Shown: one piece after another, positions 26,448 to 64,000 of the stretch
Layout: each line of letters opens with the position of its first letter
Numbering within the stretch: the stretch's first letter is position 1
NCBI RefSeq assembly: GCF_030848495.1
Contig: NZ_JAVDDT010000003.1
Coordinates: forward strand, 186,001 to 250,000
Reading direction: 5' to 3'
DNA length: 64,000 nucleotides
Source: Natronospira bacteriovora
Lineage (GTDB): Bacteria; Pseudomonadota; Gammaproteobacteria; Natronospirales; Natronospiraceae
The notes under the pieces: generated by a model
What the model saw: the letters and a program-made list of their open reading frames with translations, nothing else
Databases searched by the model: none
What the model was told of the DNA's origin: nothing
Translations under genes and position numbers: made by a program

Positions 26448-26832
26448 TGTTTCAGAGCCAGCCTGTAAGCCGGGTTCTGTCGAGGACGGTCATTCCTCTG
26501 GGATGGACGTCGCCGTCCACCTCAAGCAGCCTACCCGGGAACATGTGCGGGCCGCACATCGCATGCACGAGGCATGCACGCTCCCCTATTTGGCCTTGCT
26601 CCGGGTGGGGTTTACCCTGCCACACGCTGTTGCCAGCGGCGCGGTGCGCTCTTACCGCACCTTTTCACCCTTGCCTGTGCCCGAAGGCCATCGGCGGTAT
26701 GTTTTCTGCGGCACTTTCCGTGGGCTCGCGCCCCCCAGGCGTTACCTGGCACCCTGCCCTGTGGAGCCCGGACTTTCCTCCGTGGTCTCGCTGACGCGAC
26801 ACCACCGCGACCGCCCGGCTGACTCCGCGTCT
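26448..26832 (-). ncRNA. rnpB: RNase P RNA (bacterial type A)
   Basis: Catalytic RNA of RNase P, which matures tRNA 5' ends. Read on the minus strand it contains the invariant GAGGAAAGTCCGGGCTCC near the 5' end (CR-I), a helical body with the GGTAAGAGCGCACC segment, and the 3' block AGAGGAATGACCGTC followed by ACAGAACCCGGCTTA. The ends pair (AGTCAGCC with GGCTGGCT) as helix P1. Size near 385 bases is normal. Ends are estimated from P1 to within a few bases. Protein-like frames across this interval on the other strand are spurious. Confidence 0.96.
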
Positions 26833-62436: not shown

Positions 62437-63014
62437 GGCTGCATCTGCTGCAACAGACCGAGCCTGAACGGGAACGCTTCGGGCGCAACCCCCTGTTCGT
62501 GCGCGCCTTTGCCGACCTGGTGGAGGCGCAGGCCTATCGACGCCTGGTGATGGGCTTTCATGGCTACTACCGTCTGCTGGAGACATTGATCCGCCGCAAT
62601 CCCGACTGGCTGCGCACCGGCCTGGATCATGCCTGCCTGAACAAGAGCGACTGGCTTGCCGAGGATCTGGCGGTTCTCGACATGGACGCTGGCCCTCTCG
62701 CACCCCTTGCTCACCTGCCCCGCATCCGCTCCCTTTCGGAAGCCGCCGGGGCCTGTTTCCTGAGCGAGTACATTGCCTGGAACAGTGAAGTGGCGGAAAA
62801 ACATCTGCGCCTGGCCCTGCCCCGTTCCTGCCAGCCGGCGCTTCGCTTTGTCACGGCCTACGGCAAGAGCCGGGAAAGCCAATGGCAACGCCATTGTGCC
62901 TGGCTGGACAGCCGGGCCCTGTCCCGATCACAGCGCGACGCCTGCGTGCGGGCCGCTCGCGACGGCTTCCTCGGTCTGGATGCCTGGCTGGAAACCTGCT
63001 TGGACGAGAACTAA
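62364..63014 (+). CDS. Heme-oxygenase-like fold protein lacking the proximal histidine
   Basis: The 216 residues (204 if the in-frame ATG at 62400 is used) resemble bacterial heme oxygenases in helix pattern (FADLVEAQAYRRLVMGFHGYYRLLE; SEAAGACFLSEYIAWNSEV). At the T-x3-H site that supplies the heme ligand the sequence is TEPER, with Arg in place of His. The distal-helix glycines (GSTLGG in canonical enzymes) are also replaced. Classical heme cleavage is therefore unlikely. It overlaps MAPEG, so the three genes form one transcription unit. Confidence 0.72.
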   Translation: MAVTIDHGRDADMAGTALEPEQPLRLHLLQQTEPERERFGRNPLFVRAFADLVEAQAYRRLVMGFHGYYRLLETLIRRNPDWLRTGLDHACLNKSDWLAEDLAVLDMDAGPLAPLAHLPRIRSLSEAAGACFLSEYIAWNSEVAEKHLRLALPRSCQPALRFVTAYGKSRESQWQRHCAWLDSRALSRSQRDACVRAARDGFLGLDAWLETCLDEN

Positions 63015-63026
63015 GACGAGAACTAA
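63003..63026 (+). repeat. Tandem 12-bp duplication over the stop codon
   Basis: GACGAGAACTAA occurs twice in direct succession (63003-63014 and 63015-63026). The first copy supplies the last codons and stop of the heme-oxygenase-like gene; the second duplicates the stop in the same frame. It looks like a slippage or short-duplication event. Confidence 0.85.
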
Positions 63027-63134
63027 GACAACCATCGAGAATACGCTTCGCTGAATAGCAGAAGGGGTATTCGAGTTTGGTTGCCTGGGCGATCTTGTTG
63101 ACCCTCCCCTTTTCCAGAGCGGTGATTCGTCTGA

Positions 63135-63148
63135 TTGGTGCACACCAA
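63135..63148. promoter_or_regulatory. Short inverted repeat upstream of the metY leader
   Basis: TTGGTG and CACCAA are separated by two bases (63135-63148), about 60 bases upstream of a possible -35 element. It could be an operator or a small hairpin. The rest of 63027-63207 shows nothing else I can name. Confidence 0.3.
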
Positions 63149-63207
63149 CCCGACGCCCCCTAACCGCTCGATGCCCCAGCTTTTCCGCGAAGAATCCGAA
63201 AAAATTC

Positions 63208-63237
63208 TTGACACGGCATCCCCATTGTCTTGATGAT
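63208..63237 (+). promoter_or_regulatory. Candidate promoter of the metY leader
   Basis: A perfect -35 TTGACA (63208-63213) is followed at 17-18 bases by TGATGA/GATGAT (63231-63237), a weak -10. A start near 63243 would put the ATG at 63245 almost at the 5' end of the RNA (leaderless) and would exclude the two earlier ATGs at 63233 and 63236. Confidence 0.4.
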
Positions 63238-63367
63238 GAAAAGCATGATCATTGCCAACGACACAGTTCCATTGCTCAAGGCCCCGGCGCTTCCCGCGTC
63301 CGCGATGATGGCTTGTATGTGTATGCCCGCCGTTCCGGCTGCGGGGTCATGCACGACTGTGTTCTAG
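63233..63367 (+). CDS. Putative Met/Cys-rich leader peptide of metY
   Basis: A 44-codon frame (ATG at 63233; 63236, 63245, 63305 and 63308 are alternatives) ends in TAG at 63365-63367. Codons 25-31 (63305-63325) read Met-Met-Ala-Cys-Met-Cys-Met. The whole peptide has seven Met and three Cys. The run lies directly before paired RNA segments that end in an intrinsic terminator ahead of metY, the layout of an attenuation leader peptide. No Shine-Dalgarno sequence is evident for any of the starts, which is the main weakness. Confidence 0.6.
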   Translation: MMKSMIIANDTVPLLKAPALPASAMMACMCMPAVPAAGSCTTVF

Positions 63368-63427
63368 ACGATCAGCAAGACAGTTGTTCATCCAACCCGC
63401 AGCGGCGATGCCGGTGCGGGTTTTTTT
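63326..63427 (+). promoter_or_regulatory. Transcription attenuator upstream of metY (segments 1-4 and terminator)
   Basis: Segment 1 CCCGC (63326-63330) can pair with segment 2 GCGGG (63341-63345). Segment 2, extended as GCTGCGGG (63338-63345), is exactly complementary to segment 3 CCCGCAGC (63396-63403). Segments 3 and 4 form the terminator: CCCGCA/TGCGGG plus CGGC/GCCG (63396-63420) followed by seven T's (63421-63427). The 2:3 and 3:4 pairings exclude each other. Stalling at the Met/Cys codons would cover segment 1 and free segment 2, giving read-through into metY. Confidence 0.7.
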
Positions 63428-63472
63428 GTCTTTGAATTCCCCCTGAACTGGTCTCTCCGCTGCGGTGAATGA

Positions 63473-64000
<528 letters not shown>

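Follow-up and report, generated by a model that had tools for sequence, protein, structure and literature searches.

A probable methionine/cysteine leader-peptide attenuator ahead of metY in Natronospira bacteriovora, with counterparts in other phyla

The metY leader and its parts

The window, by which we mean the whole 64,000-nucleotide stretch of Natronospira bacteriovora DNA analyzed here, ends within metY, the first gene of a metY-metX-hom operon in which metX and then a homoserine dehydrogenase gene (hom) follow 3' of metY. The encoded MetY protein scores 686.9 bits against TIGR01326 (cut-off 495.1), a family named 'O-acetylhomoserine aminocarboxypropyltransferase/cysteine synthase' whose enzymes are annotated as producing both homocysteine, towards methionine, and cysteine. 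MetJ (PF01340) is absent from the host genome, which is 97% complete (the E. coli control was positive), and no Rfam riboswitch was found in the window leader. Elsewhere, the minus strand of the window carries a bacterial class A RNase P RNA (26450-26826). The leader and the start of the operon comprise the following parts.

63208-63213, plus strand: -35 element TTGACA, 6/6, at the same place in the leaders L005-L008 and L117 and in leaders of other phyla
63232-63237, plus strand: -10 element GATGAT, weak, 4/6, after a spacer of 18
63245-63367, plus strand: leader ORF of 40 codons plus TAG, MIIANDTVPLLKAPALPASAMMACMCMPAVPAAGSCTTVF, its ATG 7 nt past the -10
63305-63325, plus strand: putative regulatory codon run ATG ATG GCT TGT ATG TGT ATG, coding MMACMCM
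63326-63330, plus strand: segment 1, CCCGC, with 63341-63345 as its partner
63338-63345, plus strand: segment 2, GCTGCGGG, predicted 5' strand of the antiterminator, starting 12 nt past the last Met codon
63353-63387, plus strand: bridging hairpin ACGACTGT/ACAGTTGT, within the antiterminator loop, holding the leader stop codon
63394-63427, plus strand: intrinsic terminator AACCCGCAGCGGC-GAT-GCCGGTGCGGGTT followed by a T tract
63396-63403, plus strand: segment 3, CCCGCAGC, 5' part of the terminator
63518-64000, plus strand: metY (TIGR01326), O-acetylhomoserine/O-acetylserine sulfhydrylase, 439 aa, continuing beyond the window

On re-reading the sequence, we found the positions that an earlier note on this DNA had given for the run, segments 1 to 3 and the terminator to be exact. 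The MMACMCM run ends 39 nt 5' of the leader stop codon, TAG at 63365-63367, and the bridging hairpin pairs 63353-63360 with 63380-63387. The terminator hairpin (about -22 kcal/mol, with T7 at 63421-63427) contains one G-G mismatch, which is probably the reason why a strict terminator scanner omits it. The fold of the leader region has z = -2.97 relative to shuffles. Further copies of the codon run TGYATGTGYATG occur at two sites in the host genome, each within a longer coding ORF; inspected by eye, these ORFs are folP-like and HIT-like, and both sites were rejected as a second leader. Between the terminator and metY lies a second strong hairpin region (63440-63517); here the minimum-energy fold of the window has the Shine-Dalgarno region of metY base-paired to sequence 5' of it. 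A stable hairpin in this interval is, by eye, common to L005, L007 and L008. The hairpin region 3' of the terminator may constitute a translational layer.

TTGACA at 63208-63213 is the sole promoter-like site in 62500-64000. The likely start of the leader ORF is the ATG at 63245, because the in-frame ATGs at 63233 and 63236 fall inside the -10 box; this box is itself poor, which counts against reading the leader as an attenuator. To relate promoters to start codons, we picked the best sigma-70-like promoter blind to start codons in leaders outside Bacteroidota. An in-frame start codon lay 6-9 nt past the -10 in 15 of the 16 strong-promoter leaders, among them the GTG of L038 and the window ATG at 63245. 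The start codon thus coincides with the expected transcription start in nearly all promoter-bearing leaders, an arrangement indicating that the leader mRNA is probably leaderless. A start of this kind would explain the missing Shine-Dalgarno site, which the earlier note had regarded as a weak point.

Recurrence of the Met/Cys run at metY

A search for close MetY orthologues in 186 relatives and 369 genomes of the class returned five further genomes (L005-L008 and L117) with a MetY of the window's clade, 74-78% identical. These are the closest same-class orthologues that retain an intergenic leader, and all five possess the Met/Cys run, the promoter, the terminator and the complementarity between segment 2 and the terminator. 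The order of parts is the same in each: TTGACA, the -10, an ATG 6-8 nt on, the run, a stop codon 25-31 nt 5' of the terminator, and a strong terminator of the pattern (A/G)ACCCGC...GCGGGTTTTTT. Their runs include ACMCMCM, CMMCMCI and MCMCCM, within the peptide stretches FACMCMCMFMRIPV (L005 and L008), LACMCMCMLMRTAV (L007), CIACMMCMCIPQ (L006) and LHMCMCCMLMHV (L117). Comparison of the L005 and L008 leader ORFs shows five synonymous codon differences and five non-synonymous ones; the latter all lie in the N-terminal part, with none in or after the run.

The earlier note had proposed to look in relatives for conserved Met/Cys runs with covarying pairings, and had let its reading stand or fall with the conservation of the leader frame and the pairings. 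The comparison came out positive, as 5/5 leader-bearing relatives keep both. L042, a sequence titled Gammaproteobacteria whose MetY is the sister of the window MetY in the tree, lacks a leader, a different gene lying immediately 5' of its metY. Distribution of metY is patchy, since two genomes of the window's own genus lack a close MetY orthologue.

By scanning named genomes and by phylum-level searches we assembled 168 usable metY leaders, representing about ten phyla. In 45 of them an ORF upstream of metY contained five or more Met/Cys within seven codons, against 0.15 expected from dinucleotide shuffles; ORF starts in this survey include TTG/GTG extensions, and not all N-termini are real starts. 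Such leaders were found in 6/6 gammaproteobacteria (from the class set, L042 excluded), 11/30 Gemmatimonadota, 3/30 Acidobacteriota, 14/28 Bacteroidia, 9/44 other Bacteroidota, 2/5 Ignavibacteria/Kapabacteria and 0/12 cyanobacteria. Many metY genes have no leader ORF, and none of 25 distant gammaproteobacterial MetY loci had a Met/Cys run. Thus, the leader that the earlier note had placed ahead of gammaproteobacterial metY is indeed there, but it is not confined to that class: it precedes the same metY clade in Gemmatimonadota, Acidobacteriota, Acidimicrobiia, Bacteroidota and Kapabacteria/Ignavibacteria.

The enrichment is specific to two amino acids. When runs of each of the 20 were counted, only those of C (25 leaders, 0.4 expected) and M (19 leaders, 0.0 expected) were strongly enriched. 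Among 599 nearby ORFs used as a control there were two hits, one being metY and the other an overlapping frame at a metY locus; the remaining ~597 gave none. Cys codons are divided almost evenly between TGT (70) and TGC (68), and selection therefore acts on the amino acid rather than on a DNA repeat. The order and spacing of the run vary (CMCMCM, MMCCCCM, MNMRMRMRM), and the N-terminal parts of the leader ORFs do not align.

Some leaders depart from the common type. L054 (Acidobacteriota) encodes, ahead of metY, a peptide with Met and without Cys (MNMRMRMRM), possibly a Met-only version. In L063, L067, L081, L189, L198, L199 and other Bacteroidota the ORFs end in three to six Cys codons at or near the stop, and no convincing terminator accompanies these Cys-ending ORFs. 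Two MetY contigs carry labels at odds with their sequences: L105, labelled Methylobacteriaceae, is 63% identical, within the range of Bacteroidota genes, and L068, labelled Synechococcus, groups with Bacteroidota in the tree. Both are possibly misbinned MAG contigs.

Predicted antiterminator pairing, and riboswitches at metY

Two pairings claimed for the window were borne out. Segment 2 is a perfect complement of 63396-63403 over 8 bp, and CCCGC of segment 1 pairs with GCGGG at 63341-63345 in the minimum-energy fold, sequestering segment 2. Taken in the window alone, the 8-bp match has p = 0.017 against shuffled sequence and is thus no more than moderately unusual; the strength of the complementarity evidence comes from the relatives. 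Because loop lengths differ and MAFFT misregistered segment 2 when aligning 11 whole leaders, we did not count alignment columns but compared each leader's own terminator arm with permuted ones. For this purpose, we took 44 leaders having both a run and a terminator and scored the segment 3' of the run for complementarity to the 5' arm of the terminator.

Own arms scored a mean of 17.8 as opposed to 14.35 (sd 0.44) for permuted arms, and 0/20000 permutations scored as high (p < 5e-5). By group, the effect was clear in Gemmatimonadota (p = 0.001) and Bacteroidota/Ignavibacteria (p = 0.003) and weak in the six gammaproteobacterial leaders (p = 0.033) and Acidobacteriota (p = 0.07). Pairs of segment 2 and terminator arm are exemplified by GCTGCGGG/CCCGCAGC in the window, CCGTGCGGG/CCCGCACGG in L005, CCGGCGCGGGG/CCCCGCGCCGG in L049, CTGTGGGTTG/CGACCCACGG in L152, GCCGGA/TCCGGC in L099 and GTGAGAATG/CGTTCTCAC in L090. 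Scoring for complementarity found no good antiterminator in L054, L136, L157 and L161, though their leaders are of the same type. The best segments 2 commonly begin 12-16 nt past the last Met/Cys codon, which is roughly the reach of a ribosome stalled at that codon.

We also folded the window leader with a ribosome masking part of it. When the run is masked, the 2:3 antiterminator (-30 kcal/mol) forms in the simulation once the nascent RNA extends to segment 3, and with the ribosome placed at the stop codon the terminator alone remains. Full-length RNA at equilibrium favors the terminator in several simulated stalls. The switch would therefore have to be kinetic, the antiterminator winning during transcription, as in other attenuators.

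These data bear on a simpler view of the locus, in which the hairpin merely terminates transcription arriving from upstream, metY is transcribed from a promoter of its own 3' of the hairpin, and the Met/Cys frame is there by chance. Intergenic terminators of such kind are common, and the 8-bp match on its own is not extreme. The only promoter-like site is nevertheless upstream of the ORF; promoter, ORF, run and terminator occur together in all five close leader-bearing relatives and in other phyla; and the complementarity covaries across leaders. We therefore consider this explanation very unlikely.

Equally hard to credit is the idea that the leader peptide responds to a signal other than amino-acid supply, such as copper or the redox state by means of its Cys/Met side chains, or works in trans as a small protein. 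Cys/Met-rich peptides do bind Cu(I), and some of the Bacteroidota peptides have four to six Cys at their C-terminus. Enrichment is, however, confined to metY leaders and to the pathway's two products, the order and spacing of the run vary in a way unlike a metal motif, and in leaders of the terminator type the run precedes the antiterminator segment by about 12-16 nt, the spacing that ribosome stalling calls for.

SAM riboswitches share this position with the leader ORFs. Scanning 60 metY loci, we found SAM-II ahead of metY in nine Gemmatimonadota and SAM-I ahead of metY in four Acidobacteriota; at twelve Bacteroidia loci, a SAM-I aptamer lay within the leader or close to it. Several loci (L133, L140, L186 and L191) have an aptamer and no Met/Cys ORF. 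At others the two are stacked, with SAM-II 21-41 nt ahead of a Met/Cys- or Cys-rich leader ORF in the Gemmatimonadota L132 and L137, and SAM-I 2-15 nt ahead of one in the Bacteroidia L180, L184, L189 and L204. An aptamer directly before a leader ORF possibly forms a two-input gate, responding to SAM and to charged tRNA. That aptamer and ORF either substitute for one another or stand in tandem at a single gene speaks for the two having a common function.

That SAM riboswitches occupy this position in many relatives might suggest instead a metabolite riboswitch of unknown class that uses the terminator, the ORF being incidental, but this is very improbable, given that the leaders of the six genomes gave no Rfam match at E up to 1 (bar one sub-threshold snoRNA hit outside the leader), that the N-terminal ORF parts do not align, and that what is conserved across phyla is a Met/Cys run at the amino-acid level, its Cys codons varying freely between synonyms, and not an RNA fold.

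A proposed attenuation mechanism and its known counterparts

Conservation, codon specificity and covariation in the leaders of relatives all support the reading offered by the earlier note, and we regard it as highly probable that the element is a ribosome-mediated transcription attenuator sensing the charging of tRNA-Met and tRNA-Cys. At sequence level it displays what is expected of a trp/his attenuator: a promoter, a short ORF, codons for the products of the pathway, a terminator, a covarying antiterminator and suitable placement of the run. RNA polymerase would start at about 63245, placing the 5' end of the mRNA at, or 1-2 nt from, the leader AUG, where a ribosome would initiate without a Shine-Dalgarno site. 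If Met- or Cys-tRNA were short, the ribosome would stall in MMACMCM and cover segment 1. Segment 2 could then pair with segment 3 (63396-63403) around the bridging hairpin, and this 2:3 pairing would block the terminator and allow metY-metX-hom to be transcribed. With Met and Cys both plentiful, the ribosome would reach the UAG at 63365 and disrupt the bridging hairpin, 1:2 would re-form behind it, segment 3 would enter the terminator and transcription would end at about 63427.

From the codon runs and the annotated activity of the enzyme, we infer that the leader responds to Met as well as Cys and not to just one of the two. Sensing of both fits MetY, as its family is annotated as making homocysteine and cysteine. 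Met starvation would also lower initiation with fMet, thus complicating the sensing of Met. On balance, although with distinctly less assurance than for the window element, we favor the broader proposal that the leaders represent an undescribed trans-phylum class of leaderless Met/Cys attenuators, dual sensors for a dual-product enzyme that replace SAM-I/SAM-II or are stacked behind them.

The known controls of methionine genes are MetJ/MetR/SahR/SamR, SAM/SAH riboswitches and T-boxes. If our reading is true, a sensor of charged tRNA for Met and Cys adds a missing kind of control to this list, two amino acids are linked in one leader peptide, and classical attenuation operates on leaderless mRNAs across many phyla. 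The alternation or stacking of SAM riboswitch and leader peptide at one gene makes the evolutionary choice of sensor testable.

A survey of methionine regulation in about 200 proteobacteria reported no leader-peptide system and was unsuccessful in seeking regulators for the genes still uncovered, metY of beta-proteobacteria being an example (Leyn 2014, PMC4239095). Cys leaders without terminators, and no methionine leaders, were described in Actinobacteria (Seliverstov 2005, PMC1262725), and metY is not mentioned by Naville and Gautheret 2010 (PMC2965389). In full texts drawn largely from outside the subscription journals, we found no description of a Met/Cys leader peptide ahead of met genes. 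Our best reading is that this trans-phylum Met/Cys variant of ribosome-mediated attenuation is probably new.

Among known systems, SAM-I (RF00162) and SAM-II/SAM_alpha (RF00521) occupy the corresponding position ahead of metY in relatives but bind SAM directly, and neither these nor any other SAM family matched the window or the six leaders. The metXZ RNA element of beta-proteobacteria, which lies ahead of metX or metZ, consists of six conserved sequence regions and a pseudoknot, with no leader peptide (Leyn 2014, PMC4239095). It resembles the window leader in preceding methionine genes and in its proposed terminator/antiterminator switch; the window leader differs in having a leader peptide and in preceding metY.

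Nearest in the mode of initiation are the mycobacterial polycysteine uORFs, short leaderless ORFs with clustered Cys codons ahead of sulfur genes (Shell 2015, PMC4633059; Canestrari 2020, via PMC13236596). Their runs are of Cys only and lie near the stop codon, no terminator is present, and the regulation described for them is translational. The metY leader, in contrast, mixes Met and Cys, and its run lies 39 nt before the stop and is followed by a terminator and a covarying antiterminator. The Cys-ending Bacteroidota variants without a clear terminator appear closer to the mycobacterial type. With the trp/his/leu/thr attenuators of Proteobacteria, the metY leader shares a short ORF carrying product codons, the 1:2/2:3/3:4 pairings and a terminator before the first structural gene. 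Unlike them, it reads Met and Cys, its mRNA is apparently leaderless, and it recurs at the same gene across phyla.
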